DNA of 64,000 nucleotides from contig NZ_UIHB01000006.1 in assembly GCF_900476395.1 (NCBI RefSeq), forward strand, positions 310,001 through 374,000, written 5' to 3'. The position numbers and the translations under genes were made by a program. Source of the DNA: Xanthomonas euroxanthea. GTDB taxonomy: Bacteria; Pseudomonadota; Gammaproteobacteria; Xanthomonadales; Xanthomonadaceae. Below the pieces are notes generated by a model that was given only the letters and a program-made list of their open reading frames with translations, did not search any database and was not told the origin of the DNA. Shown one piece after another: positions 10,469-53,898 of this stretch (its first letter is position 1; every line of letters starts with the position of its first letter).

Positions 10469-11311
10469 TCAGGCGGTCTCGGTGGAGTCGGTCTTGGCCG
10501 CGCGCGCGGCGCGGGCGCGCGGACCGTGGAAGTATTCCTGGATCCAGGGGTGGTCGACCTGTTCGATCTCGGCCAGCGGCGCGTTGGCAATCACCTTGTG
10601 ATCGGCCAGCACCGCGATGCGGTCGCAGATGGCGTACAGCGTATCCAGGTCATGGGTAATCAGGAACACGGTCAGGCCCAATGCCTGCTGCAAGGTGCGG
10701 ATCAGGCGGTCGAAGGCAGCTGCGCCGATCGGGTCCAGCCCGGCAGTGGGCTCGTCCAGGAACAGCAGCGGCGGATCCAGCGCCAGCGCCCGCGCCAGGC
10801 CGGCGCGCTTGCGCATGCCGCCGGACAGCTGCGAGGGCAGTTTGTCCAGCGCATCGGCCGGCAGGCCGGCCAGCTTGATCTTCAGCAGCGCCAGCTCGAA
10901 ATACCAGCGCTCCGGAAACTCGCCGTGATGCTCCTTCAGCGGCACCTGCACGTTTTCGCCGACGGTCATCGACGAGAACAGCGCGCCGTCCTGGAACAGC
11001 ACGCCGGTATTGCGGGTGATGTGCTGGCGGTCGGCGAAGCGGCCCGAGCGCGCATCCGCTCCCAGGACCTGGATGCTGCCGGCATCCGGCTCGCGCAGGC
11101 CCAGGATGCTGCGCATCAGCACCGACTTGCCGGTGCCCGAGCCGCCGACCACGCCAAGGATCTCGCCGCGCCGCACGTCCAGATCCAGGTCCTCGTGCAC
11201 GACCTGGCTGCCGAAACGGTTGGTCAGCCCGCGCACGGAAATCGCCAGCTGGTCGTCGTCGGCCTCGGCCTCTGTGCCGGGATTGGGGAGTGGGGATTCG
11301 GGATGGGTCAC
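10469..11311 (-). CDS. ABC transporter ATP-binding protein (MlaF-like)
   Basis: 280-residue ATPase of the MCE-type lipid transporter. Walker A GGSGTGKS is at residues 56-63, the signature is LSGGMRKRAGLARAL, and Walker B is FLDEPTAGLDP. Homology to the family starts near residue 22 (LAISVRGL). The only start in reach is GTG 11311, preceded by GGGAGAG at a good distance. Residues 2-12 (THPESPLPNPG) are encoded by one arm of a GGGAATC-type interspersed repeat, so the repeat has become the N-terminus. It is co-transcribed with the MCE and lipoprotein genes downstream; the permease lies upstream beyond the repeat. Confidence 0.92.
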   Translation of the reverse strand: MTHPESPLPNPGTEAEADDDQLAISVRGLTNRFGSQVVHEDLDLDVRRGEILGVVGGSGTGKSVLMRSILGLREPDAGSIQVLGADARSGRFADRQHITRNTGVLFQDGALFSSMTVGENVQVPLKEHHGEFPERWYFELALLKIKLAGLPADALDKLPSQLSGGMRKRAGLARALALDPPLLFLDEPTAGLDPIGAAAFDRLIRTLQQALGLTVFLITHDLDTLYAICDRIAVLADHKVIANAPLAEIEQVDHPWIQEYFHGPRARAARAAKTDSTETA

Positions 11312-11391
11312 AGCACAGCTCTCCCGGGTGTCAGGGCGCCAGCTGCGCTTCTGCCTTGCACGAATCCCGAATCCCGAATGTCCAATCCCGG
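11279..11391. repeat. Paired GGGAATC-type arrays between permease and ATPase genes
   Basis: Left arm 11279-11307 is built of GGGATTG/GGGATTC units. The right arm 11361-11391 carries the complementary CGAATCCCGAATCCCG pattern. The two can fold back on each other around a ~50-nt spacer. The left arm extends into the ATPase coding sequence; the right arm lies just beyond the permease stop. It belongs to the same family as the elements near 24.6, 25.3, 34.0, 34.7 and 53.9 kb. Confidence 0.8.
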
Positions 11392-24621: not shown

Positions 24622-24812
24622 GGGGATTCGTTGTTCGGGATTCGGGATTGGTTGCGTCATGGGGCCGGCGAGAACCGCCGGCATCCAGTCATCAACGTCA
24701 GTGGTGGTGCCGTGGAGCGAAGGTCGAACGTTTGGGATTAGTCATTGGATGCAGTCCTTGGAGACGCAAAAATCTGCTTTTACGAATCCCCAATCCCAAC
24801 TCCCCAATCCCC
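24622..24812. repeat. Paired GGGAATC-type arrays between holC and valS
   Basis: Left arm 24622-24651 (GGGATTCG... units) and right arm 24783-24812 (CGAATCCCCAATCCC...) are inverted relative to each other across ~130 bp. The spacer holds a small hairpin, CCGGCGAGAACCGCCGG. The element fills the whole holC-valS gap, so the two genes may be joined by a structured spacer or uncoupled by it. Confidence 0.8.
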
Positions 24813-25252: not shown

Positions 25253-25369
25253 GGGATTCGGGAGAGGGGAATCGGGAATGGTCACGGCATCGCCGCGACC
25301 TCGAAGGTCGCGGAGGTGACTGAGAGGAAAGGGATTTCACGATTCCCTATTCCCGATTCTCAATTCCCA
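25253..25369. repeat. Paired GGGAATC-type arrays with central hairpin between pepA and holC
   Basis: Left arm 25253-25281 and right arm 25341-25369 are inverted copies of GGGATTC/GGGAATC units. Between them is a perfect hairpin, CCGCGACCT-CGA-AGGTCGCGG at 25293-25313. The right arm overlaps the end of pepA: its last codons GGG-AAT-TGA come from the array. Confidence 0.82.
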
Positions 25370-32253: not shown

Positions 32254-35200
32254 ATGATGGTCCTCGAGGGCGCTTCCGCCCTTTCGCCGTTCCGCCGCGC
32301 TCGGCTCGAAACCCGCCTGCAAGCCCTCGTTCCCGCGCTGCGCATCACCGGCGCCTGGCACGTGTACTTCATCCGCGCCGAGGCCGGGCAAGCGCCCGAC
32401 CAGGCCACCTTGCAGCGGATCCTGCAGGCCGAAGCCGCCCCCGCTCCGCGGGCCGAGGAGGCTTCCTCGCGTTACGTGGTGCCGCGCCTGGGCACGCTGT
32501 CGCCATGGTCGAGCAAGGCCACCGAACTGGTGCGCGGGGCCGGGCAGCCGATCCAGCGCGTGGAGCGTGGCACCCGCATCGATCTGGCCGGCTGGCCGGC
32601 CGACGACGCGATGCAGGCCGCCGTGGCCAAGCTGCTGCACGACCCGATGACGCAGTCGCTGCTTGGCTCGGCCGCGGCCGCCGAGGCGCTGTTCAACGTG
32701 CCCGATCGCGGGCAGTTGCAGCGCGTGCCACTGGCGGCGCTGGAGCAGGCCAACCGCGACCTGGGCCTGGCCCTGGCGCAGGACGAGATCGACTACCTGC
32801 GCGAACGCTTCGCCGAGCTGGGCCGCGACCCGGCCGATGTCGAGCTGATGATGTTCGCCCAGGCCAACTCCGAGCATTGCCGGCACAAGATTTTCAACGC
32901 CAGCTGGACCATCGACGGCAAGCCGCAGGAACGCTCGCTGTTCCGCATGATCAAGCACACCCACCAGCAGACCCCGCAGCACACCCTGTCGGCCTACAGC
33001 GACAACGCCGCGGTGGTGGAAGGCGTGCCGGCCGCGCGCTATCGGCCGGATCCGGCCAGCGGCGAGTACCGCGCCGAGGCGGTGCTGCCGTCGGCGTTTG
33101 CGATCAAGGTGGAAACGCATAACCACCCGACCGCGATCGCGCCATTCCCCGGTGCCGCCACCGGTGCCGGCGGCGAGATCCGCGACGAGGGCGCCACCGG
33201 CCGCGGCGGCAAGCCCAAGGCCGGCCTGACCGGGTTCACGGTCTCGCACCTGCGCATCCCGACCCTGCCGCAGCCGTGGGAGGCGCCGCGCGCGCTGAAC
33301 CCGCGCATGGCCCCGGCGCTGGACATCATGCTCGACGGCCCGCTCGGCGGCGCCGCGTTCAACAACGAATTCGGCCGGCCGAACCTGCTCGGCTATTTCC
33401 GCAGCTTCGAGCTTGCCGAAGGGCAGGGCCTGACCCGCGCCTACGACAAGCCGATCATGCTGGCCGGTGGCCTGGGCGCGATCGATCGCAACCAGGTCGA
33501 GAAGCTGCGCCTGCAGCCCGGCGATGCGGTGATCGTGCTGGGCGGCCCGGCGATGCTGATCGGCCTGGGCGGCGGTGCGGCCAGTTCGGTGGCCGCCGGC
33601 GACAGCGCCGAGGCACTGGATTTCGCCAGCGTGCAGCGCGAGAACCCGGAGATGGAGCGCCGCTGCCAGGAGGTCATCGACCGCTGCGTGGCGCTGGGCA
33701 CCGACAACCCGATCCGCTGGTTCCATGACGTGGGCGCGGGCGGCCTGTCCAACGCCATTCCCGAGTTGCTGCACGATTCGGGCGTGGGCGGCATCATCGA
33801 CCTGGGCCGCGTGCTCACCGACGACCCCTCGCTGTCGCCGCTGGAACTGTGGTGCAACGAATCGCAGGAGCGCTACGTGCTGGGCGTACCGCAGGCGCGC
33901 CTGGACGAATTCGCCGCGATCTGCGCACGCGAGCGCTGCCCGTTTGCCGCCGTCGGCGTGGCCACGGCCGAGGAGCGGCTGGTGGTTGGCTACGGCGTCC
34001 TCGACGCTGGGAATGGGGAATCGGGAATCGGGAATGGTAACGGCGCACTGCCGGTTGCCGATGCCGCTTCTCACCATTCCCCATTCCCCACTCCCGATTC
34101 CTCGCTGCCGATCGATTTGCCGATGGACGTCCTCTTCGGCAAGGCGCCGAAGATGCATCGCGATGCGGTGCATCCGCCGGCGCCGCAATGGCCGGTGCTG
34201 CAGACCGCCGCGCTGGATCTGCAGCAGGCCGGCCTGCGCGTGCTGGCGCATCCCACGGTGGCGTCCAAGAGCTTTCTGGTCACCATCGGCGACCGCAGCG
34301 TGGGTGGCCTGACCGCGCGCGAGCAGATGATCGGGCCGTGGCAGCTGCCGCTGGCCGATTGCGCGATCACCCTGGCCGGCTTCGATACCTTCGCCGGCGA
34401 AGCGATGTCGATCGGCGAGCGCACCCCGCTGGCGTTGTTGAACGCCGCCGCGTCGGCGCGCATGGCGGTGGGCGAGGCGATCACCAACTTGTGCGCCGCC
34501 CCAGTGCAGACGCTGGACAGCATCAAGCTCTCGGCCAACTGGATGGCCGCGGCCGGTCATGCCGGCGAAGACGCCTTGCTGTACGACGCGGTGCGCGCGA
34601 TCGGCATGGAGCTGTGCCCGGCGCTCGAACTGAGCGTACCGGTGGGCAAGGACTCGCTGTCGATGCAGGCGCAGTGGGTTGTCGGGAATGGGGAATCGGG
34701 AATCGGGAATGGCGAAACGCCGCAGCCCGCCGCTTCCACCATTCCCGATTCCCTACTCCCCATTCCCGGCGAAACGCACAAGAGCGTTTCACCCGTCTCG
34801 CTGATCATCAGTGCGTTCGCACCCGTTGGCGATGTGCGCACGCAATTGACGCCGCTGTTGCGTAGCGACGAAGAGAGCGAGTTGTGGTTGATCGGGTTGG
34901 GCGGCGGCAAGCAGCGTCTGGGGGGCTCGGTGCTGGCGCAGGTGTATGCCGACGATGCCGCGCTACCGGCATTCGGCGGCGAGGTGCCGGATCTGGACGA
35001 TGCGCAGCGCCTGCGCAGTTTCTTTAAACTGATCCGCGCCGCGCGCGAGAGTGGCCTGTTGCTGGCGTACCACGACCGCAGCGATGGCGGTGCGTTTGCG
35101 GCACTGTGCGAAATGGCGTTCGCCTCGCGCCAGGGCCTGGATATCACGCTCGATGCCTGGGGCGACGATGCGTTCCGCAGCCTGTTCAACGAAGAACTGG

Positions 35201-36300
35201 GCGCGGTGGTGCAGATCGCCAACGAGGATCGCGCCGCGTTCGCCGATCTGGTCGAGCGGCATGCCTTGACCGAATGCGCGCAGCGTATCGCACGTCCCAC
35301 CGGCGCGCCGCGCATCCGCGTGAGCGGGCAGGGCCGCGTGCTGGCCGAGTGGCGTTGGGAAGCCTTGTTCGATGCCTGGTGGTCGGTGAGCCACGCCATG
35401 CAGAAGTTGCGCGACAACCCGGAAACCGCCGACGAGGAGCGTGCACAGGCGCGCGACTTCCAGGCGCCGGGATTGCGTCCGAAGCTGGTGTTCGATCCGT
35501 CCGAAGACGTGGCCGCGCCCTTCGTGGCGACCGGTGCGCGGCCCAAGGTGGCGATCCTGCGCGAGCAGGGCGTCAACGGGCAGATCGAGATGGCCTACAA
35601 CTTCGAGCGCGCCGGTTTCCGTGCGTTCGACGTGCACATGAGCGACCTGATCGAAGGCCGGGTGGATCTGGCGCAATTCTCGGGGTTTGCGGCCTGCGGC
35701 GGCTTCAGCTACGGCGACGTGCTGGGTGCCGGCCGCGGTTGGGCCACCTCGATCCTGGAACGGTCAGCCTTGCGCGATGCGTTCGCCGCGTTCTTCGCAC
35801 GCAGCGACACCTTCGCGCTGGGCGTGTGCAACGGCTGCCAGATGCTCAGCCAGCTCAAGGACATCATTCCCGGTGCCGAGCATTGGCCGCGGTTCCTGCG
35901 CAATCGCAGCGAGCAGTTCGAAGCGCGCACGGCCTTGCTGGAAGTGGTGGAGTCGCCGTCGATCTTCCTGCGCGGCATGGCCGGCTCGCGGATTCCGGTG
36001 GCGGTGGCGCATGGCGAAGGCCGCGCCGAGTTCGACACCGTGGTGGATCAGGCCGCTGCACGTGTGGCCCTGCGCTTCATCGATGGCGATGGCGCGGTGG
36101 CCTCGCAGTACCCGCTCAATCCGAACGGCTCGCCGGACGGCATCACCGGGCTGACCAGCACCGACGGTCGCGCCACCATTCTGATGCCGCATCCGGAGCG
36201 CACCCCGCGCACGGCAAACCTGAGCTGGCACCCGGCCGACTGGGGCGAGGACTCGCCGTGGCTGCGCATGTTCCGCAATGCGCGGGTCTGGTGCGGTTGA
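32254..36300 (+). CDS. purL: Phosphoribosylformylglycinamidine synthase, with two repeat-derived insertions
   Basis: 1348-residue cytoplasmic enzyme of purine synthesis (FGAR + Gln + ATP to FGAM). The synthetase core holds [15 protein letters not shown] and [20 protein letters not shown] in the active half. The C-terminal glutaminase domain has GVCNGCQM with nucleophile Cys1192 and the His1313/Glu1315 pair in MPHPERTPR. It is about 50 residues longer than E. coli PurL (1295). The excess falls in two spots: residues ~586-616 and ~811-839, each coded by inverted GGGAATC arrays and reading [10 protein letters not shown] at the left arm. Both keep the frame. A perfect hairpin follows the gene. 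Confidence 0.97.
34009..34101. repeat. Palindromic GGGAATC element inside purL, copy 1
   Basis: Left arm 34009-34037 is four GGGAAT units; right arm 34073-34101 is the complementary ATTCCC series; the spacer is 35 bp. It encodes about 31 residues of low-complexity sequence between the two halves of the PurL synthetase core. The left arm is identical, base for base over 29 nt, to that of copy 2. Confidence 0.9.
34684..34769. repeat. Palindromic GGGAATC element inside purL, copy 2
   Basis: Left arm 34684-34712 is the same 29 bases as copy 1 and is read in the same codon phase. Right arm 34738-34769 is complementary. GGCGAAACGC occurs both just inside the left arm and straight after the right arm. 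The element encodes residues ~811-839. Confidence 0.9.
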
Positions 36301-36731: not shown

Positions 36732-39700
36732 ATGAAACCAATGTACTTGGATGCCGGCGGTGGGCAGCATGCCCATTGCCGAACGGGCAGGCTTGCCTGC
36801 GATGTGGGGAATCAGCGGTTGAATCGATCGCCGGTGCATGCGCGCGGCAGGCTGGCGGCAGCGATGCTGCTGGCACTTGCCGGCGTGGCCGCAGCTGCCC
36901 AGGCCACCACGCATGCCGATGCGCTTGCGCATTGCACCGCGGTCGAGGGCCAGCAACGTTGCGACACCGATGCGGCGACCCGCAACGACGTAGTGCCTGC
37001 AACCGCGAGCGCGCAGGTGACCGCAACGCCTGCGGCCGATACCGATGCACCGGGGTTTGCGGATGGGCAGGATGCGTTGGCACTGGGCAATGCAAGCAAT
37101 GCGCTGGGCGATGGCACCAGTGCGTTCGGTGGCGGAAGCCTGGCGCTGGAGCGCGACGCCACCGCGATCGGGCACAACGTATCGGCTGCCGGGGAATCGG
37201 CAACCGCCATTGGCGGCGTGGCAACGGTCTACGACTACGACGCATTCGGTTTTGTCATCGGGCAACGCGAACAGGCCACGCAAGCGTCCGGGGTGGGGGC
37301 GACGGCCATCGGCGGTGGTGCACTGGCCGGCGATCCGTTTTCCAGCGCCCTGGGCAGCGGCGCCAGCGCCATCGGCGTGCAGGGCACGGCGGTGGGGTAT
37401 CGCGCGCAGACCGGCAACGACGGCGCCACCGCGGTGGGCGGTCTGTCCACGGCCAGTGGTTTTCTCTCCACCGCCGGCGGCTACAGTTCGCGTGCCAGCG
37501 GAGATACGTCCACCGCCTTCGGTTACCGGGCGCGCAGCGAAGGCAGTAGCAGTATTGCAGTGGGCGATACCGCACTGGCCAGCGGGGTGCAAAGTGTGGT
37601 GGTGGGTGGCATCAGCAACTTCGGCTCGATCACCGCCGCCACCGGAACAGGCGGCATCGCGCTCGGCGCAGGTGCGCAGAGCCAGTCCGATTATGCGATT
37701 GCCATTGGCTACGATTCCAACATCTTTCCGAATCGGCCTGGCAATACCGATTCCGTGGCGATCGGCCACAGCGCCGGTTCGTTCGCGCCACGCACGGTAT
37801 CGCTGGGTGGTTTCGCATTGACGATGGGCGATGGCGGCATCGCGATCGGTCACGACAGCACGGCCTACGTGGAAAACAGTATCGCCTTGGGCGCGCGCGC
37901 CGCTACGTCGTGGTTCAACGGCAACAACACCGCGATCGGTGCAGATTCCCAGACCAATGGCATCGATGCGCTGGCGATCGGCTATGGCGCGCGCGTGGGC
38001 GATTTTGTCGACGATGCCTGGAATCGTTCGGCATCCAGTGCAGTCGCACTGGGCGCACATTCCTACGCGTACCGCAGCAACACGGTGTCGGTGGGCGATG
38101 TGCAGGCGGGTTTGATGCGGCAGATCACCAGCGTGGCGGCAGGCACCGAAGCCAACGATGCGGTCAATGTGGCCCAACTCGACAGCGTGCGCGCGATCAC
38201 CAATCGGCTCGACAGCACGCTGGCCATTGGCAAGACCGATACGGACGAAGCCGCTGCCCATGTCGACGGACTCAATGCGCTGGCCTTGGGGAGCGCCAGC
38301 AATGCGATCGGCGACGGCGCCAATGCGCTGGGCTCGGGCAGCCTGGCGCTGGGGCGCGATACCGTGGCTGTCGGCCGCAACGCCAGCGCGGCCGATGCAT
38401 CGGCCGTTGCAGTGGGCGGCGTGGCGTCCGTGCCGGTGTTCGATGCGGCGGGCTCGATCGTCGGCGCGCAGGAACAGGGTGCCTCGGCCCAGGCGCGCGG
38501 CGCGGTGGCGCTGGGCAGCGCGGCCATTGCCCAGCGCAGCTTCGCCACTGCGGTCGGCACGGGTGCAGCGGCCAGTGGCGAGCAATCGATGGCGGCCGGA
38601 TTCAGCGCCCGTGCGCAGGATGATGTGGCCACTGCGGTGGGCGCCTTTTCGAGCGCCCGCAGTGCGGCGGCGTCGGCCTTCGGCTTCGGTGCGCTGGCCA
38701 ACGCGAGCATGACCACGGCGGTGGGCTTCAACGCCTCCAGTCTTGGCGAAGGCAGTGTGGCCGTGGGCAGTCTGGCGGTTGCCGCTGGCGAGCGCAGCGT
38801 GACGCTCGGCGGCATGTCGCTGATCAGCTCCACGCTCAGGTCGGCAGGTGCCTTCCGGGTCGGTGGCGTTGCCATCGGCGCCGGCGCGCGAAGCGACGGC
38901 GATTATGCCGTTGCGCTGGGCTACAACGCCAATGTGTTCTCCAACGACAGCAATGCCGATGCGGTGGCGATCGGCCATAGTGCGGCCTCGTTCGCGCCGC
39001 GCACGGTGGCGCTGGGGGCGCTGGCATCTGCCGAGGGCGTTGAGGGGATCAGCATCGGCTACGACGCGCGTGCCGCCTCCAGCAGGAGCATTGCGATCGG
39101 CAGCGGCGCCAATACCTCGATCCTCCATGGCGACAATATCGCCCTGGGAACCAACGCCAGGGCGGACGCGCCCGACGCGATCGCGATCGGGCGCAATGCC
39201 AGCGTCGGCGTGTTCGTCGGTGAAGCGGGCAGCGCGGCGATGGCACTGGGCGTGCAATCCAATGCGCTGGGCAACAACAGTCTGGCGATGGGCTACAACG
39301 CCTTTACTCGGCAAGGGGGCAGTAACGCCGTCGCACTCGGTGCCGATGCCGGTGCCAGTGGTGCCGATTCGGTGGCGTTGGGCGCGGGCTCGCGCAGCTA
39401 CGAGGCCAACGTGGTGTCGGTGGGTAACGGCAATGGCCGCGGCGGCCCGGCCACGCGTCGCATCGTCAATGTCGGCAGCGGCGCGATTGCCAGTGCCAGC
39501 ACCGATGCGATCAACGGCGGCCAGCTGTTCCAGTCACTCAGCAACGCTGCCAGCTTCCTCGGCGGTGGCGCGGCGATCGGTGCGCAAGGCGTGTTCGTGG
39601 CACCGACCTACGTGATCCAGGGCAGCAGTTACCGCAATGTGGGCGAGGCGCTGACTGCGCTGGACAGCAAGGTCAGCGAGCTGGATGCGCGAGGTGGAGC

Positions 39701-40697
39701 GGCCACGCCCGGCACTGCCGCACGTTCAAGCGCTGCGCGTGTGGCAGCGGCGCCTTCACCAGTTGCGGACGCCTCGACTGTCGCCACCACGGCGGATGCG
39801 ACAGACGATGGCCTGCAGGCGACAGCGCTGGCCATCGACGGCATGCCAGAAAGTTCGGCGTCGTCGGTTGCTGCAACGGCGAGCGCGCTGGATGCAGGCA
39901 ACGCGGTGCAGGGCAGGCCGACTGCGGCGGTGGTCGGCAGCATCACCCCGGCCGCAACGTCCACCGCCGTCGGCACGGCGGCAGTGGCCAACCACGTGAC
40001 CGGCACGGCGATCGGCGGCAGCGCATATGCGCATGGCCCCAACGACACTGCGATCGGCAGCAATGCACGCGTCAATGCCGATGGCAGCACCGCGGTCGGC
40101 GCCAATACGCAGATCGCTGCGGTGGCGACCAATGCGGTGGCGATGGGCGAAGGCGCGCAGGTCAGCGCGGCCTCCGGCACGGCGATCGGCCAGGGTGCAC
40201 GGGCAAGCGCACAAGGTGCGGTCGCGCTGGGCCAGGGGTCGGTCGCCGATCGCGCCAACACGGTGTCGGTGGGCAGCGTCGGCGGCGAGCGTCAGGTGGC
40301 CAATGTGGCCGCCGGCACGCGTGCCACCGATGCGGTCAACAAGGGCCAGCTGGACAACGGCGTCGCTGCGGCCAACAGCTATACCGACAGCCGCTACAGC
40401 GCGATGGCCGACAGCTTCGAAACCTACCAGGGCGACATCGAGGACCGTCTGCGCCGGCAGAACCGTCGCCTGGACCGGCAGGGTGCGATGAGCTCGGCGA
40501 TGTTGAACATGGCCGCCAGCGTCGGCGGCATCGCCACGCAGAACCGCGTCGGTGCCGGCGTCGGTTTCCAGAACGGCGAATCGGCGTTGTCGGTGGGCTA
40601 CCAGCGTGCGATCAGCCCGCGCGCCACGCTGACGGTGGGCGGCGCGCTCAGTGGTGACGACAGGTCGATCGGCCTGGGCGCCGGCTTCGGCTGGTAA
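36732..40697 (+). CDS. YadA-like trimeric autotransporter adhesin 1
   Basis: 1321-residue surface adhesin. ATG 36732 is preferred because GGGGAG...GTCGATGAA matches the start context of adhesin 2. A hydrophobic signal segment lies at residues 41-56 after a long polar N-terminus; no ESPR motif is seen. The passenger is full of the YadA head repeat (A-x-A-x-G-x-x-S pattern), with three neck motifs of the type NVAAGT-x-ATDAVNKGQL. The last ~105 residues form the coiled-coil and YadA anchor barrel ending in FGW. It would be Sec-exported and trimerise in the outer membrane to bind surfaces or host tissue. The 3' ~770 bp is almost identical to that of adhesin 2. A subtilase gene follows 87 bp later. 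XadA-type names would fit, but I do not assign one. Confidence 0.93.
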   Translation: MKPMYLDAGGGQHAHCRTGRLACDVGNQRLNRSPVHARGRLAAAMLLALAGVAAAAQATTHADALAHCTAVEGQQRCDTDAATRNDVVPATASAQVTATPAADTDAPGFADGQDALALGNASNALGDGTSAFGGGSLALERDATAIGHNVSAAGESATAIGGVATVYDYDAFGFVIGQREQATQASGVGATAIGGGALAGDPFSSALGSGASAIGVQGTAVGYRAQTGNDGATAVGGLSTASGFLSTAGGYSSRASGDTSTAFGYRARSEGSSSIAVGDTALASGVQSVVVGGISNFGSITAATGTGGIALGAGAQSQSDYAIAIGYDSNIFPNRPGNTDSVAIGHSAGSFAPRTVSLGGFALTMGDGGIAIGHDSTAYVENSIALGARAATSWFNGNNTAIGADSQTNGIDALAIGYGARVGDFVDDAWNRSASSAVALGAHSYAYRSNTVSVGDVQAGLMRQITSVAAGTEANDAVNVAQLDSVRAITNRLDSTLAIGKTDTDEAAAHVDGLNALALGSASNAIGDGANALGSGSLALGRDTVAVGRNASAADASAVAVGGVASVPVFDAAGSIVGAQEQGASAQARGAVALGSAAIAQRSFATAVGTGAAASGEQSMAAGFSARAQDDVATAVGAFSSARSAAASAFGFGALANASMTTAVGFNASSLGEGSVAVGSLAVAAGERSVTLGGMSLISSTLRSAGAFRVGGVAIGAGARSDGDYAVALGYNANVFSNDSNADAVAIGHSAASFAPRTVALGALASAEGVEGISIGYDARAASSRSIAIGSGANTSILHGDNIALGTNARADAPDAIAIGRNASVGVFVGEAGSAAMALGVQSNALGNNSLAMGYNAFTRQGGSNAVALGADAGASGADSVALGAGSRSYEANVVSVGNGNGRGGPATRRIVNVGSGAIASASTDAINGGQLFQSLSNAASFLGGGAAIGAQGVFVAPTYVIQGSSYRNVGEALTALDSKVSELDARGGAATPGTAARSSAARVAAAPSPVADASTVATTADATDDGLQATALAIDGMPESSASSVAATASALDAGNAVQGRPTAAVVGSITPAATSTAVGTAAVANHVTGTAIGGSAYAHGPNDTAIGSNARVNADGSTAVGANTQIAAVATNAVAMGEGAQVSAASGTAIGQGARASAQGAVALGQGSVADRANTVSVGSVGGERQVANVAAGTRATDAVNKGQLDNGVAAANSYTDSRYSAMADSFETYQGDIEDRLRRQNRRLDRQGAMSSAMLNMAASVGGIATQNRVGAGVGFQNGESALSVGYQRAISPRATLTVGGALSGDDRSIGLGAGFGW

Positions 40698-43033: not shown

Positions 43034-43210
43034 TTCGCTCAGTTCTATGGTTGGGTAGCGTTCACTTTTTGACTATCCAGGGTGCCGCTTTCCGCGCACC
43101 GCCAGTTGGCCCATGGCGCCAATCACCACGGGGATCGCAGTGGCTGACGGCCTCGCGACGGTGGGTGTTTGTCAAAAAAACCAGTCCCAACATTCAGGAG
43201 CAGGGCGTCG

Positions 43211-46200
43211 ATGAATCGGATTTATCGCAAGGTCTGGAACAAATCGTTAGGCGTGTGGGCCGTGGCATCGGAGTTGGCCAGCGGCGACAGCCCGGGCGCA
43301 GTGAGCACCGCCGCATTCATCGACCGCCGCCAGAGCCGTTGCCTGGTTGCCGCGATCGCCCTGGCGCTGGGTAGCGCCGGCATCGCCATCCCCCTTTCCG
43401 CAGTGGCGCAATCGGTCGAAGTCGGTCGCGGTGCGTCGGCACCTGCCGCCAACGCCACCGCCATCGGCGCCGGGAGTCGCGCCAGCGCGACCGGCGCGCT
43501 CGCCACCGGTGCCGACAGCAGCGCCAGCGGCGTCAACAGCAGCGCGATCGGCCGCCAGACCAATGCGATCGGCGAGAACGCAGTGGCCATTGGCTACAAC
43601 AGCTTCGTGCGCCAGAGCGGCGAAAACGGCGTGGCGCTGGGCGCCAACGCCGGCGTGACCGGTGCCAACTCGGTGGCGCTGGGCGCAGGCTCGCGCACCC
43701 ACGAGGACGATGTGGTGTCGGTCGGCAGCGGCAATGGCCGCGGTGGCCCGGCCACGCGCCGCATCACCAACGTCAGCGCCGGCGTCAACGCCACCGACGC
43801 GGTCAACGTGGCGCAGTTGCGCGACGTGGCCGACGTGGCCGAAGACACCGCCACGTTCTTCAAGGCGACCCCGGGCGAAGACAGCGTCGGCGCCTATGTC
43901 GATGGCGACAGCGCGCTGGCTGCCGGCGATGCCGCCAATGCCACGGGCACGGCGACCACTGCGCTGGGAACCGGTGCCAATGCGGTGGCCGACAATGCCA
44001 CCGCGGTCGGTGCCAATGCGCTCGCCTCCGGGCAGAACAGCGCGGCATTCGGCCATAACGCGCAGGCCAACGGCCCCGGCAGCGTGGCCGTCGGCGGCGC
44101 TGCGGTCGACGAAGATGGCGAGCCGTTGGTCACCAACGGCGGCGTGCCGGTCACCACCGGTGCCACCAGTGCCGGCGTCGGCGGAACCGCGGTCGGCGCC
44201 AGCGCCAATGCCGATGGCTTCGCGGCCTCGTCGTTCGGCGTCGGCGCGTATGCGGCCGGTGCGCAGTCGTCCGCGTTCGGTGCGGTTGCCAATGCGGCAG
44301 GCGATTACGCCACCGCCGTGGGCACGCAGACCAGCGCCAGCGGCACCAGCAGCACCGCAGTCGGTGGTCCGGTCGATTACGTCCCGGGTCTGGGTTTCTT
44401 CGTGCAGACCCAGGCCAGCGGCGATGCGTCCACCGCGCTCGGCGCCGGGGCGATCGCATCGGGTACCTACACCACCGCCGTCGGCGTGCTCAGTGAAGCC
44501 TCCGGCACCGAAGCCACCGCCGTGGGTTACTTCGCCTATGCACCCGGCGAAGGTGCCACGGCAGTCGGCCCGGAATCCTGGGCCAGCGGCGAGCTGAGCA
44601 CGGCGCTGGGTTACTACAGCACCGCACGCGGCGCCAACTCGGTTGCGTTGGGCGCCAATTCGATTGCCACGCGCGCCAACACCGTGTCCGTTGGCGCGGC
44701 CGGCGATGAGCGCCAGATCACCAATGTCGCCGCCGGTACCGAAGGCAGCGATGCGGTCAATCTCGACCAGCTCACCGCCGTGTCCGACGTTGCTTCCACC
44801 ACCGCGCGCACGTTCGTGGCCACCGGCGATGGCACCGCGATTGCTGAAGGCATCGACAGTGTTGCGGCCGGTTCCAACGCATCGGCAACGGGTGACTACA
44901 GCGCTGCATTCGGTTCGACCAGCCAGGCATCCGCGCAGGGCAGCACCGCGCTCGGCAGCGGCGCCATCGCGACCGGCGAGAATGCAAGCGCGCTCGGTTT
45001 CAACAGCAATGCAGTCGCCGACAACGCCACTGCGCTTGGCGCCACCAGCAGCGCGTCGGGCGAGTCCAGCACCGCAGTGGGCGGCGCAAGCCAGGCCACC
45101 GCCAGCGGCGCGACCGCACTGGGTTACGAGAGCATCGCCAACGCCGCCGACTCCACTGCGCTGGGGGCGGGCAGTGTGGCCTTCGGCGACACCAGTACGG
45201 CCGTGGGCGGTGCAAGCGTCGCGTTCGGCGATGACAGCGCCGCTTTCGGCGCCAATGCCGCCGCCGGCGGTAGCGCATCCACTGCGATCGGCGCAAACAG
45301 CAGTGCCTTCGGCGAGCGCACCGTTGCGCTGGGTGGCGCCAGTAACGCGTCGGGCGACGACAGCATTGCGCTCGGTGCGAGCAGCCAGGCCTCCGCGCTG
45401 GGCACGACGGCGGTCGGCAGCAATGCCAACGCCAGCATCGCCAATGCCACGGCGGTGGGCTTCAACAGCAGCGCCGGTGACGACTACGCCACCGCGCTCG
45501 GCGGCGACAGCAATGCATCGGGATATTTCAGCACCGCCGTCGGCGGCAACAGCATCTCCAACGGACGCTACTCGACAGCGATCGGCTATGAAAGCATCGC
45601 CAACGGCGGCTCGGCCACTGCGCTGGGCAGGGCCAGCGTCGCCTGGGGCGATGGCAGCACCGCGATCGGCATCGAGAGTTCGGCCTATGGCTACGACAGC
45701 ACCGCAGTGGGCCCCAATGCCTTCGCCGCCGACACCGCCTCGGTGGCGATGGGTGCGTTCGCCAACGGGTGGGGCGCGCGTGCCATTGCACTTGGCAGTG
45801 AATCTGCCGCGGTAGGCGATGAAAGCGCTGCGCTGGGCTGGGAAGCGCAGGCCGATGGCGCGCAGAGCGTGGCCATCGGTAGCAACGCGCTTGCGTCCGC
45901 GCAAAACAGCGTAGCGCTGGGCGCCGGCGCAGTTGCCGATCGCGCCAATACGGTGTCGGTGGGCAGCGTCGGTGGCGAGCGCCAGGTCACCAATGTCGCC
46001 GCCGGTACCGAAGGCACCGACGCGGTGAACCTGGACCAGCTCAACGCGGTCGGCGAGACCGCCGAAGCCACTGCGCGCCTGTTTACCGGTACCGGCACCG
46101 GCACCGCCGATGCGCAGGGCGAGGACGCCATCGCGGCCGGGTCCAATGCCACCGCCGATGGCGATTACAGCAGCGCGTTCGGCTCCAGCAGCCAGGCCAC

Positions 46201-49200
46201 CGCGATCGGCACGGTCGCCATCGGCAGCGGTGCCAGCGCCACCGCGCAGTACGCCAATGCGGCCGGCTACAACGCCGCCGCCAGCGGATACGGCAGTGTG
46301 GCCAGCGGCGCCTTCAGCCAGGCCAGCGGTGATTATGCCGTGGCCGTGGGTGGCGAAAGCGAAGCCGCCGGCGCGCAGAGCACCGCGCTGGGTGCGGCGG
46401 CAGGCGCCTATGGCGATGGGTCGCTGGCGGCCGGCACGCTGAGCGTGGCCGATGGCAGCGAAACCACCGCAGTGGGCTATTTCGCCAGCGCCAGTGGCGA
46501 TTCGGCCACCGCGGTCGGCGCGGAAAGCGTGGCCGATGGCACCAGCGCGGCGGCGTTCGGCTTCGGCGCCGAGGCCACCTCCAACTACTCCACCGCCCTG
46601 GGCGGCTATTCCAGCGCGACCGGGTTCAACAGCACCGCGCTGGGCAATTTCAGCACCGCCAGCGGCTCCAGTACCGTGGCCGTGGGTGGCGATGCCACCG
46701 CAACCGGCGACTACAGCGTCGCGGCCGGCCAGGGCAGCGTGGCCAGCGGCTACAACAGCGTGTCGGTCGGTGGCGCCTTGCTCGGCCTGCTGCCGACCGA
46801 AGCCTCCGGCGACTTCTCCACCGCGCTCGGCGGCGCTGCATGGGCGCCTGGCCTCAACAGCACCGCACTCGGCAATTTCGCCGAATCCACCGGCGAAAGC
46901 AGCGTGGCGCTGGGCGCCGATTCGGTGGCCGATCGCGATTTTGCGGTCTCGGTGGGCAGCGCCGGTAACGAGCGTCAGATCACCAACGTGGCCGCCGGTA
47001 CGCAGGGCACCGATGCGGTGAATCTGGACCAGCTCAACGCCGTGGCCGAAACCGCGCAATCCACCAGCAAGTACTTCCAGGCCAGCGGCAGCGCCGACAG
47101 CGATGCCGGCGCCTATGTGGATGGCGACAACGCGCTGGCTGCAGGCGAGGGCGCCAATGCCACCAGCACCGGCACCACGGCGTTGGGCGCAGGCGCGCAG
47201 GCGGTGGTCGATAACGCAACGGCGGTCGGCGTGAGCGCACTGGCCAGCGGCATCGGCGCGGCGGCGGTGGGCAACAATGCCCAGGCCACCGGCGAAAACA
47301 GCAGCGCGGTCGGCAGCAATGCCCTGGCCAGCGATGTCGGCGCCACCGCAAACGGTGCCGGCGCGCAAGCGGTTTCGACCTATACCACCGCGCTCGGCAG
47401 CGAGGCAGTGGCATCGGACAACCAGGCCACGGCGGCCGGTTTCCGCAGCACCGCCTCCAATGTCGGCAGCGCCGCCTTCGGTGGCTACAGCGAATCCAGC
47501 GGCCGGTTGTCGTCGGCGCTGGGTTACGGCGCGGTGGCCTCGAGCGACTACAGCACCGCGGTCGGTGCCGCATCGCTGGCCTCCGGTGCAAGCGCGGTCG
47601 CCGTGGGCGAGTTCAGCGAAGCCACCGGCGACGAAAGCGTGGCGGTGGGCGGCAGCACGTTCTTCGGCTTCATCCCGGCGCGTGCCACCGGCACCGGCGC
47701 TGCTGCATTCGGTGCAGGTGCCTGGGCCACGGCCGACTACACCACCGCGATCGGCTGGAATTCCTATGCCGACGGCGTCAATGCCACCGCGCTGGGTCAG
47801 AGCGCGGCGGCACTTGCCGACAACACGCTGGCCCTGGGTGGGGGCAGCCGCGCCGATGCGGTCGGTGCCAGCGTGGTCGGCGTGGATGCATCGGCGACCG
47901 GCATCAACAGCACAGGCGTCGGCCGACAGGTCAACGTGATCGGCGAGAACGCGGTGTCGGTGGGCTACAACTCGTTTGTGCGCCAGAGCGCGGTCAACGG
48001 TGTGGCCCTGGGTGCCAATGCCGGTGCAACCGGTGCCGATTCGGTGGCACTGGGCTCGGGCTCGCGCAGCGACGAAGCCGACACGGTGTCGATTGGCAGC
48101 GGCAATGGCCGCGGCGGCCCGGCCACCCGCCGTATCGTCAATGTCAGCGACGGCCAGGCGGCGACCGATGCGGTCAACAAGGGCCAGCTGGATGCGCTGG
48201 CGGCCGATGTGCAGACCACCACCGGCATGGTGCAGACCACCGGCGAAGGGGTGGCCACCGCGACCGGTGATCGCGCCACCGCCGCAGGTGCCGGCGCAAC
48301 CGCCAGCGGCGCACGCAGCGTGGCGATCGCCTCCGGCAGCCGCGCCTCGGCCACCGGCGCCAGCGCCATGGGCGTGGACAGCAGCGCCAGTGGCGTGAAC
48401 AGCACCGCGATGGGCCGGCAGACCAATTCCATCGGCGAAAACGGCGTGGCGCTGGGCTACAACTCCTTCGTGCGCCAGAGCGGTGCCAACGCAGTGGCGC
48501 TGGGTGCCAATGCCGGTGCCAGCGGTGCCGATTCGGTAGCGCTGGGCTCGGGTTCGCGTACCTACGACGCCAACGTGGTGTCGGTCGGTAGCGGCGATGG
48601 CCGCGGCGGCCCGGCCACGCGTCGCATCGTCAATGTCGGCAGCGGCGCGATTGCCAGTGCCAGCACCGATGCAGTCAACGGCGGCCAGTTGTTCCAGTCG
48701 TTGAGCAACGCTGCCAGCTTCCTCGGCGGTGGTGCGGCGATCGGTGCGCAAGGCGTGTTCGTCGCGCCGACCTACGTGATCCAGGGTGCCAGCTACAACA
48801 ACGTCGGTGCGGCATTGACCGCGTTGGACAGCAAGGTCACCGAGCTGGACGCGCGTGGCGGTAGTGCAACGGCCAGTACTGCGGCACGCACGTTGTCGCT
48901 GCGCACCGCAGCGGTGCCGGCTGTTGCCACCAGTGCAGTGACTGCATCGAGCAACGCTGTCGCCGATACCGGCGCCAGCGTGCAGGGCACGCCGACCGCA
49001 GCGGTGGTCGGCAGCATCACCCCGGCCGCAACGTCCACCGCCGTCGGCACGGCGGCAGTGGCCAACCACGTGACCGGCACGGCGATCGGCGGCAGCGCGT
49101 ATGCGCATGGCCCCAACGACACTGCGATCGGCAGCAATGCACGCGTCAATGCCGACGGCAGCACCGCGGTCGGCGCCAATACGCAGATTGCCGCGGTGGC

Positions 49201-49771
49201 GACCAATGCGGTGGCCATGGGCGAAGGCGCGCAGGTCAGCGCGGCCTCCGGCACGGCGATCGGACAGGGTGCACGGGCAAGCGCACAAGGTGCGGTGGCC
49301 CTGGGTCAGGGGTCGGTGGCCGATCGTGCCAACACGGTGTCGGTGGGCAGCGTCGGCGGCGAGCGGCAGGTGGCCAATGTGGCCGCCGGCACGCGTGCCA
49401 CCGACGCGGTCAACAAGGGCCAGCTGGACAACGGCGTCGCTGCGGCCAACAGCTATACCGACAGCCGCTACAGCGCGATGGCCGACAGCTTCGAGACCTA
49501 CCAGGGCGACATCGAGGACCGTCTGCGCCGGCAGAACCGTCGCCTGGACCGGCAGGGTGCGATGAGCTCGGCGATGTTGAACATGGCCGCCAGCGTCGGT
49601 GGCATCGCCACGCAGAACCGCGTCGGTGCCGGCGTCGGTTTCCAGAACGGCGAATCGGCGTTGTCGGTGGGCTACCAGCGTGCGATCAGCCCGCGCGCCA
49701 CGCTGACGGTGGGCGGCGCACTCAGCGGTGACGACAGTTCGATCGGTGTGGGTGCCGGCTTCGGCTGGTAA
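43211..49771 (+). CDS. YadA-like trimeric autotransporter adhesin 2 (giant, ESPR-type signal)
   Basis: 2186-residue trimeric autotransporter. ATG 43211 gives MNRIYRKVWNKSLGVWAVAS, the classic extended signal peptide region, followed by the hydrophobic core at ~44-63 and cleavage near AVA-QS (~66). The passenger contains hundreds of head-type turns (SxAxG) and seven neck motifs (e.g. NVAAGTEGTDAVNLDQL). A ~90-residue module with GENAVAIGYNSFVRQS and GRGGPATRR occurs three times (residues ~100-190, ~1557-1646, ~1717-1814). The C-terminal coiled coil and anchor barrel end in FGW and nearly duplicate adhesin 1. Codon use is strongly GC-rich with almost no rare codons. A protease gene follows after 223 bp. 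Expected role: surface attachment and biofilm or host contact. Confidence 0.94.
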   Translation: MNRIYRKVWNKSLGVWAVASELASGDSPGAVSTAAFIDRRQSRCLVAAIALALGSAGIAIPLSAVAQSVEVGRGASAPAANATAIGAGSRASATGALATGADSSASGVNSSAIGRQTNAIGENAVAIGYNSFVRQSGENGVALGANAGVTGANSVALGAGSRTHEDDVVSVGSGNGRGGPATRRITNVSAGVNATDAVNVAQLRDVADVAEDTATFFKATPGEDSVGAYVDGDSALAAGDAANATGTATTALGTGANAVADNATAVGANALASGQNSAAFGHNAQANGPGSVAVGGAAVDEDGEPLVTNGGVPVTTGATSAGVGGTAVGASANADGFAASSFGVGAYAAGAQSSAFGAVANAAGDYATAVGTQTSASGTSSTAVGGPVDYVPGLGFFVQTQASGDASTALGAGAIASGTYTTAVGVLSEASGTEATAVGYFAYAPGEGATAVGPESWASGELSTALGYYSTARGANSVALGANSIATRANTVSVGAAGDERQITNVAAGTEGSDAVNLDQLTAVSDVASTTARTFVATGDGTAIAEGIDSVAAGSNASATGDYSAAFGSTSQASAQGSTALGSGAIATGENASALGFNSNAVADNATALGATSSASGESSTAVGGASQATASGATALGYESIANAADSTALGAGSVAFGDTSTAVGGASVAFGDDSAAFGANAAAGGSASTAIGANSSAFGERTVALGGASNASGDDSIALGASSQASALGTTAVGSNANASIANATAVGFNSSAGDDYATALGGDSNASGYFSTAVGGNSISNGRYSTAIGYESIANGGSATALGRASVAWGDGSTAIGIESSAYGYDSTAVGPNAFAADTASVAMGAFANGWGARAIALGSESAAVGDESAALGWEAQADGAQSVAIGSNALASAQNSVALGAGAVADRANTVSVGSVGGERQVTNVAAGTEGTDAVNLDQLNAVGETAEATARLFTGTGTGTADAQGEDAIAAGSNATADGDYSSAFGSSSQATAIGTVAIGSGASATAQYANAAGYNAAASGYGSVASGAFSQASGDYAVAVGGESEAAGAQSTALGAAAGAYGDGSLAAGTLSVADGSETTAVGYFASASGDSATAVGAESVADGTSAAAFGFGAEATSNYSTALGGYSSATGFNSTALGNFSTASGSSTVAVGGDATATGDYSVAAGQGSVASGYNSVSVGGALLGLLPTEASGDFSTALGGAAWAPGLNSTALGNFAESTGESSVALGADSVADRDFAVSVGSAGNERQITNVAAGTQGTDAVNLDQLNAVAETAQSTSKYFQASGSADSDAGAYVDGDNALAAGEGANATSTGTTALGAGAQAVVDNATAVGVSALASGIGAAAVGNNAQATGENSSAVGSNALASDVGATANGAGAQAVSTYTTALGSEAVASDNQATAAGFRSTASNVGSAAFGGYSESSGRLSSALGYGAVASSDYSTAVGAASLASGASAVAVGEFSEATGDESVAVGGSTFFGFIPARATGTGAAAFGAGAWATADYTTAIGWNSYADGVNATALGQSAAALADNTLALGGGSRADAVGASVVGVDASATGINSTGVGRQVNVIGENAVSVGYNSFVRQSAVNGVALGANAGATGADSVALGSGSRSDEADTVSIGSGNGRGGPATRRIVNVSDGQAATDAVNKGQLDALAADVQTTTGMVQTTGEGVATATGDRATAAGAGATASGARSVAIASGSRASATGASAMGVDSSASGVNSTAMGRQTNSIGENGVALGYNSFVRQSGANAVALGANAGASGADSVALGSGSRTYDANVVSVGSGDGRGGPATRRIVNVGSGAIASASTDAVNGGQLFQSLSNAASFLGGGAAIGAQGVFVAPTYVIQGASYNNVGAALTALDSKVTELDARGGSATASTAARTLSLRTAAVPAVATSAVTASSNAVADTGASVQGTPTAAVVGSITPAATSTAVGTAAVANHVTGTAIGGSAYAHGPNDTAIGSNARVNADGSTAVGANTQIAAVATNAVAMGEGAQVSAASGTAIGQGARASAQGAVALGQGSVADRANTVSVGSVGGERQVANVAAGTRATDAVNKGQLDNGVAAANSYTDSRYSAMADSFETYQGDIEDRLRRQNRRLDRQGAMSSAMLNMAASVGGIATQNRVGAGVGFQNGESALSVGYQRAISPRATLTVGGALSGDDSSIGVGAGFGW
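47881..48650 (+). repeat. Tandem head-neck modules inside adhesin 2
   Basis: Two copies of the FVRQS...GRGGPATRR module lie at about 47881-48150 and 48361-48650; a third is far upstream at ~43500-43780. They share long stretches of nucleotide identity and are likely sites of slippage or recombination that change adhesin length. Confidence 0.75.
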
Positions 49772-53864: not shown

Positions 53865-53898
53865 GCCCGATTCCCGATTCCCGATTCCCCACTCCCGG
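53865..53898. repeat. Single GATTCCC-type array between xpsE and xpsF
   Basis: CCCGATTCCCGATTCCCG... units form one arm of the GGGAATC family, ending 12 bp before the xpsF ATG. No opposing arm was found in the 175-bp gap. A GCGC-rich inverted stretch lies just upstream (53810-53840). Confidence 0.75.

Follow-up and report, generated by a model that had tools for sequence, protein, structure and literature searches.

MITEs are short, carry inverted repeats and exist in many copies. The palindromic elements of Rickettsia (RPEs) were reportedly described by Ogata in 2000 and 2002 and, to our knowledge, the way in which the in-frame palindromes of that genus spread is still open. According to the portions of the literature on which we rely here, RPEs are palindromic repeats of ~150 bp, many of them located in frame within genes and thought to be compatible with protein fold and function (PMC10969869), and REP/BIME sequences with REP-associated tyrosine transposases (RAYT) are abundant small palindromes in the genomes of Xanthomonas and Stenotrophomonas (Nunvar 2010, PMC2817692). 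The GGGAATC repeat of Xanthomonas has been published as a mostly intergenic repeat of G-quadruplex type (Rehm et al. 2015, PMC4692102). In two Xanthomonas genomes, 186 and 183 arrays were counted, with 70 and 75 convergent pairs; 89% and 93% of the repeats are intergenic, and 11% and 7% lie at least partly within open reading frames. The formation of G-quadruplexes in vitro was reported for oligonucleotides of the repeat, the repeat regions were called stable, and two Xac plasmids were found to be without it. The terms "purL" and "in frame" never occur in the main text of that paper, and the parts of it covered here give no account of exchange between sites or of other families at the same loops.

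In this study, we have analyzed a stretch of 64,000 nucleotides from Xanthomonas euroxanthea (the window), in which this intergenic palindromic family sits twice in frame inside an open purL gene, as a preliminary description had proposed. The identity of the gene is supported by the NCBIfam PRK05297 match (1966.6 bits) and by sequence matches to solved PurL structures (e.g., 1t3t). The features of the locus are as follows:

32254..36300, + strand: purL, phosphoribosylformylglycinamidine synthase (open reading frame, NCBIfam PRK05297 and structure matches)
34009..34101, + strand: element 1, an in-frame inverted repeat of GGGAATC type at PurL site 1 (about residues 586-616)
34009..34037, + strand: left arm of element 1, 29 bases identical to the left arm of element 2
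34074..34101, + strand: right arm of element 1, C-rich strand
34684..34767, + strand: element 2, an in-frame inverted repeat of GGGAATC type at PurL site 2 (about residues 811-838)
34684..34712, + strand: left arm of element 2, 29 bases identical to the left arm of element 1
34739..34767, + strand: right arm of element 2, C-rich strand

The frame encodes 1348 residues with no stop through either element. Site 1 follows the first AIRS_C match (residues 421-579), and site 2 lies at the end of an FGAR-AT_PurM_N-like match (residues 671-810). The two left arms are indeed identical over 29 bases (GGGAATGGGGAATCGGGAATCGGGAATGG) and both are read in codon phase 0, with 4+3 heptamer units in element 1 and 4+4 in element 2. 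The shared codon phase, to which the preliminary description had drawn attention, is weak evidence, because a tandem heptamer gives one cyclic peptide whatever the frame: (GGGAATC)n encodes the identical peptide in each of the three frames, and none of its six frames has a stop, as is the case for all four heptamer types tested (GGGAATC, GGGATTC, GGGACCC and GGGACTC). As its heptamer frames are open, the repeat can survive inside genes; in the 27 inverted copies outside purL in the window genome, 56% of the frames are stop-free. As single RNA strands, elements 1 and 2 fold at -51.2 and -63.5 kcal/mol (z of -5.1 and -9.0 against 200 shuffles, with 0/200 shuffles in each case), and the hairpins are not due to chance. 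The extra length of PurL matches the inserts, as had been suggested from a comparison with Escherichia coli: the protein of Stenotrophomonas rhizophila (L042) has 1294 residues, with loops of 33 nt (site 1) and 21 nt (site 2) against 114 and 102 nt in the window. An AlphaFold2 model of 786 residues has a mean pLDDT of 59.4; its values drop below 50 at both inserts but also elsewhere, and the quality of the model is thus too low for it to be relied on. On the 3' side of purL, the window holds two large open reading frames of YadA-type trimeric autotransporter adhesins with YadA head and stalk repeats (36732-40697 and 43169-49771); in the second region, the opposite strand is open as well, over 2206 codons.

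The whole genome of the window strain contains 254 matches of GGGAATCGGGAAT and none of the reversed control. Its copies show a general plan (GCC, a G-rich arm of about four units, an AARAGC-like inner motif, a variable loop, a GCTYTT-like motif, a C-rich arm, and GGC), which is a tendency and not a rule, since a strict search of the 27 copies outside purL finds these motifs in a minority: the inner motifs in 10 and 11, GCC in 11, and GGC in 5. Besides those of purL, the window carries the following copies:

11279..11375, no strand assigned: inverted pair
24637..24811, no strand assigned: inverted pair, ATT type
25267..25354, no strand assigned: inverted pair
53869..53896, - strand: single tandem arm of four heptamers

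Sampling of the genome, which covered the window together with fifteen stretches of at most 20 kb and a further 18 shorter stretches, gave 60 distinct clusters, 24 of them with a stop-free frame of at least 60 codons on each side. Five of the 60 look coding on both sides, namely the two in purL, a copy in a YheS-type ABC-F gene, and a further two, which were set aside as probably antisense; the family is mostly intergenic in this genome as well. In one of these two (L146, 8264), the spanning frame runs on the strand opposite to the adjoining open reading frame, presumably that of a sulfite reductase, and the copy lies just before it; the other (L155, 7911) was set aside only because its spanning frame resembles an H/Q/R-rich antisense frame. 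The genes with in-frame copies in the sampled part of the genome are two, purL and the ABC-F gene. No Rfam family matched at gathering score, and 22 of the 24 sub-threshold matches were to microRNA families. A plasmid search returned one partial match in Xanthomonas sacchari and three in Klebsiella to the purL part of the query; the former (NZ_CP010410.1, 505582-505675), in a plasmid record of 508 kb, shares 78% identity with an 88-base part of the element 2 region, which contrasts with the two Xac plasmids reported to be free of the repeat (PMC4692102).

The inserts are not specific to the window strain: the other 34 genomes examined from the genus are filled at both points as well, so that both sites are occupied in 35/35, with inserts longer than the Stenotrophomonas loops. 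Some are reduced or decayed. At site 2, G002 keeps the left part alone (45 nt), G031 is 21 bases short, and X. maliensis (G024) is degenerate; at site 1, G018 and G019 have a small hairpin of 63 nt. The insert length is a multiple of three in 34/35 genomes. The exception, G027 (L145), loses the frame twice, since a G-run at site 1 lacks one base and the insert at site 2 is also off by one, and a sequencing error is the likely cause in this 90%-complete assembly. An alignment of 103 PurL rows (Lysobacteraceae and two Rhodanobacter, some genomes twice; 105 rows were extracted, and L145, with its lost frame, and L178, with an internal stop, were left out) contains insertions of at least 8 residues at site 1 in 82 rows (shifted to a neighbouring column in 11) and at site 2 in 69. 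Elsewhere in PurL, insertions of this size occur in one to seven rows per place and reach at most 17 residues. Near reference position 1110, a nearly identical insert of 17 residues (PYMDVQVPRAQDAQERP and near forms) is present in four distant lineages (L039, L053, L172, L174 and L184, of which L039 and L172 are one genome) and absent in most other rows.

Outside the genus, we compared 40 PurL loci chosen from 247 genomes searched (243 matched), comprising the 20 best-ranking loci after those of the genus, 10 of lower rank, and 10 with a split match. Several genera carry heptamer elements, which are found at site 2 in Luteimonas saliphila (L049), L175, L179, L184, L187 and others. Both sites are free of repeats in eight named Stenotrophomonas loci, which have 33 nt at site 1 and 21 nt at site 2 (36 nt in L041), and two Rhodanobacter outgroups have 24 and 21 nt. 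The presence of the repeat throughout the family (Xanthomonadaceae), conserved residue by residue, would be the mark of old PurL loops; these empty loci do not show it, and across Xanthomonas itself the inserts are not conserved at the residue level, which argues against such a reading. L044 (Xanthomonas sp. GPE 39) and L176 have non-repeat loops of 45 and 51 nt, in genomes with 2 and 3 tandem matches, and their location amid filled relatives on the tree is as expected from loss. The repeat load of the genome plays a part: the median number of tandem matches per genome is 507 with a heptamer element at site 2 (n = 19) and 3 without one (n = 20; G243 was left out), in genomes of shared ancestry. 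Repeat load alone is not decisive for site 2, because five genomes without a heptamer element there have 44, 74, 109, 256 and 472 matches.

Site 1 can also be filled by an unrelated palindrome. In eight of the 40 loci from outside the genus (L177, L178, L180, L182, L186, L188, L198 and L199), it holds an element of a CTCTCCC family, of the form CCCTTCTCCC..GGGAGAAGGTGCCCGAAGGGCGGATGAGGG or near it, in most cases with a second half like CCTCACCCCAACCCCTCTCCC. The 16-mer CCCCAACCCCTCTCCC has 32-52 copies in seven of these eight genomes (0-11 for the reversed control), and its exact form is absent in the eighth (G037, L188). The presence of this 16-mer alone does not decide which family occupies site 1, because it is also frequent in genomes with heptamers there (up to 142 matches). 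In L178 (G243), the CTCTCCC-family insert brings an in-frame TAA that splits the PurL frame, either a real split, a reading error or a pseudogene; it is an exception to the frame filter discussed below. Five of the 40 loci, which are Pseudoxanthomonas-like, have GC-rich inserts at site 1 that look palindromic; these inserts are not claimed as a repeat family, their 17-mer being found only 0-4 times per genome concerned. Palindromes of the two families can also be nested, as at L153:19680-19931, where a CTCTCCC-family copy lies in the loop of a GGGAATC element.

In-frame inserts are not peculiar to purL. The YheS-type gene encodes an ABC-F ATPase (best solved match YheS, 9vvi; the NCBIfam PRK10636 match is below cut-off), and the insert site is the loop before its second ATPase domain. 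Across the 35 genomes of the genus, this loop contains a member of the heptamer family in 10 and of the other family (CCTTCCCCC..GGGGGAAGGTGCCCGAAGGGCGGATGGGGG) in 15 (G004 and G030 being diverged forms), it is empty in 8 (three read, and five inferred from a split match and a frame of 640-641 residues), and G027 and G028 are unassigned. Eight of the heptamer cases consist of the left arm and the inner motif only, and G018 and G019 have the right arm too. Thus, within a single genus, two unrelated palindromic families fill the same protein loop, differing by species, which argues for tolerance of the loop and not for a role of one particular sequence.

Within the genus, the arms are built of heptamers of AAT, ATT or ACC type. 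Between sister species, an arm type or an entire element is switched for another, and the edges of these changes are sharp. The window and G005, its closest purL relative, differ by 3.1% over purL, and their adjacent 60-nt flanks by 1.7-6.7%, whereas their inserts are identical at only 76/114 and 71/97 positions (33% and 27% different). At site 2 of L032 and L120, there is no difference in either flank (0/60 and 0/60), and the inserts are identical at 80/97 positions; at site 1, L129/L139 and L161/L169 carry AAT against ACC elements between flanks that are 3.3-5.0% different. These cases come from 12 hand-picked close pairs, several of which have kept the element at one or both sites (e.g., at site 2, L112/L115 and L047/L138). 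A purL tree from which the inserts were excluded requires at least 13 (site 1) and at least 9 (site 2) changes between filled and empty, and at least 38 and 29 changes of type, with unclassified inserts counted as states of their own (eight single-row states at site 1 and two at site 2) and on the assumption of a purL tree that is itself possibly recombined. This tree has 86 rows, after leaving out nine (L048 for its N run; L059, L113, L143, L144 and L170-L173 as repeats or near-repeats) and merging eight identical ones. If an exact baseline length is never regained, 14 (site 1) and 13 (site 2) clades are without tips of baseline length; a repeat or palindrome can be recognised in about twelve and seven of these, and five of the twelve are of the unproven GC-rich kind.

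Content has also passed between the two sites of purL. An 84-base loop of X. melonis (G025) has four matches in the 35 genomes (at most 26 candidates were scored per genome), all in purL: site 1 of G025 and G026, and site 2 of G025 and G029, with 78-89% identity besides itself. The same private loop is present at site 1 and site 2, and therefore copies have moved between the two. The left and right arms agree in type in 75/82 elements (counting each distinct insert that has two or more heptamers per half; shuffle mean 28.7), the two sites agree in 28/34 genomes (shuffle mean 13.0; G027 was left out of the type tests), and the purL type follows the genome-wide type (Spearman 0.57-0.68, n = 34); these figures are not independent tests, because the rows share ancestry. 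X. maliensis, with 0 AAT, 0 ATT and 151 ACY tandem matches, has ACC-type purL inserts; the purL type is unlike the genome majority in 13/34 genomes at site 1 and 12/34 at site 2. Three elements (L119, L127 and L164) have one arm of each type and look like half-way states. The agreement between arms is not special to purL, as it is also seen in 27/31 other pairs of the window genome, most of them AAT, and in 12/12 ACC-type pairs of G024 and G015. In a test of covariation, only 4/30 and 1/33 pairs show a double change at site 1; covariation on the raw 102-nt alignment of site 2 was discarded, since the AAT and ATT forms are offset by 3 nt, which inflates the count of 16/17 double-change pairs, and the arm types were compared in its place.

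With regard to the active or recent copying that the preliminary description had suggested, a copying or exchange process is needed; the insertions themselves are not recent, both sites being filled throughout the genus. The recent event looks like a replacement of the content of the insert, and not like the insertion itself. We consider it probable that palindromic repeats insert generally, survive in frame in tolerant loops, and are then exchanged in place. The repeats would spread through the genomes of Lysobacteraceae and now and then land in genes; two PurL loops would tolerate some 25-50 extra residues, and only in-frame, stop-free copies would survive there, which may be why unrelated families occupy the same points in different genera. 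Tolerance of the loops, rather than any benefit from the inserts, would then determine the choice of sites. Once a loop is filled, its content would be swapped in place by short-tract recombination, presumably a RecA-type conversion, with the same site in other species, the other purL site and, probably, the hundreds of intergenic copies as partners. The heptamer arms would supply the homology for this exchange, which may explain why the edges fall at the ends of the element and why both arms change together. Against this explanation, the comparison between species revealed neither an insertion enzyme nor a strain-level pair of empty and filled sites; inspection by eye of empty against filled sites from different species, in PurL as well as in YheS, showed no target-site duplication.

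Ordinary allelic recombination at purL from species to species can account for some of the switching, as indicated by the window-clade-like site 2 allele of L120. That plain allelic recombination accounts for the whole pattern, with one old insertion per lineage and a Xanthomonas patchwork created by interspecies homologous exchange of purL without any copying of elements, seems to us unlikely, although it would fit the near identity of that L120 allele to the window clade in loop and arms, as well as the elements with one arm per type, which a crossover in the loop would yield. It leaves unexplained the same private loop at both sites, the agreement of types between the sites and with the rest of the genome, and the occupation of the same point by unrelated families, both in other genera and in YheS. 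The convergence of unrelated palindromes on the same points might instead be read as the sign of a selected function, in which the purL message profits, near domain boundaries, from a long hairpin or G-quadruplex (e.g., as a translation pause for folding) and any able repeat is recruited. Both points do lie at the limits of Pfam matches, and the arm types stay matched; we regard such a function as improbable, however, in view of the loci that do without a repeat (the eight Stenotrophomonas loci, L044 and L176), of the half elements at site 2 of L116 and L180 and in the YheS gene, and of the arms that also match in pairs outside purL, so that a purL function is unneeded to keep them.

Explanations that dispense with a mobile copy, or that assign the movement to a known enzyme, fare worse. 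The heptamers might have arisen in place, by slippage from a small pre-existing GCC..GGC hairpin; empty sites do show small inverted repeats (e.g., GGCC-GAT-GGCC), and heptamer numbers vary. Stems are not enriched at empty sites, however, since gene positions at least as good make up a mean fraction of 0.39 and 0.57 (17 loci), and an inner motif (AARRGC-like) is common to 10/27 copies outside purL and the ACC-type purL copies, which makes local growth highly improbable. For the same lack of enrichment, a pre-existing hairpin was rejected as the target of insertion. Mobilisation by RAYTs is hardly credible: Y1_Tnp matches occur in 31/35 genomes of the genus and RAYT-linked REPs are palindromic, but the Xanthomonas RAYT REPs given in the part of that study considered here begin with GTAGGAGCG (PMC2817692), unlike GGGAATC, and the four genomes without a Y1_Tnp match (G010, G012, G029 and G033) have 93, 100, 25 and 91 GGGAATC tandem matches. 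As the presence of Y1_Tnp does not track the repeats, RAYT was rejected as the mover.

Returning to insertion followed by exchange in tolerant loops, we tentatively put forward a further possibility, in which the two PurL loops and the YheS-type ABC-F loop are standing cassettes of selfish DNA, whose in-frame copies are overwritten through ectopic gene conversion among hundreds of palindromes. If so, parts of conserved proteins would evolve in concert with intergenic repeats and not with their own gene. In dozens of species, fixed points of conserved genes are seen filled, empty, occupied by half an element or swapped, with two unrelated families in the same loops; the gain, loss and exchange of small bacterial palindromes can thus be measured by simple gene sequencing. 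Non-coding DNA can rewrite the loops of conserved enzymes and, as a warning, purL-based trees and protein models in Lysobacteraceae include segments derived from repeats.

All together, these results place the purL elements among known systems. They belong to the GGGAATC repeats of Rehm et al. (2015), with which they share the heptamer, the inverted-pair layout and the genus, being composed of GGGANTN heptamers, two or more in tandem and GGGAATC among them, often in convergent pairs; what is new relative to that work is the history of the repeat inside PurL. Judged by title and abstract, none of the papers among the matches listed deals with in-frame copies in Xanthomonas purL or YheS, and the supplementary tables of Rehm et al. 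may list purL. The likeness to MITEs consists of short inverted repeats in many copies; no target duplication was seen between species. The REPs, as far as described in the portion of Nunvar 2010 used here, are likewise abundant small palindromes, in the genomes of Xanthomonas and Stenotrophomonas; the purL elements have no head of the GTAG/GTGG type, most starting with GCC- or GTC-GGGA, and the repeat is present in the four genomes without a Y1_Tnp match. They are not RAYT-linked REPs. The closest parallel appears to be offered by the RPEs, many of which, in the description available to us (PMC10969869), are likewise palindromes located in frame within genes, as those of purL are in a conserved one. 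The taxa are different and, in the case of purL, the same loops are filled by unrelated families, their contents are swapped, and few genes are found to be hit.
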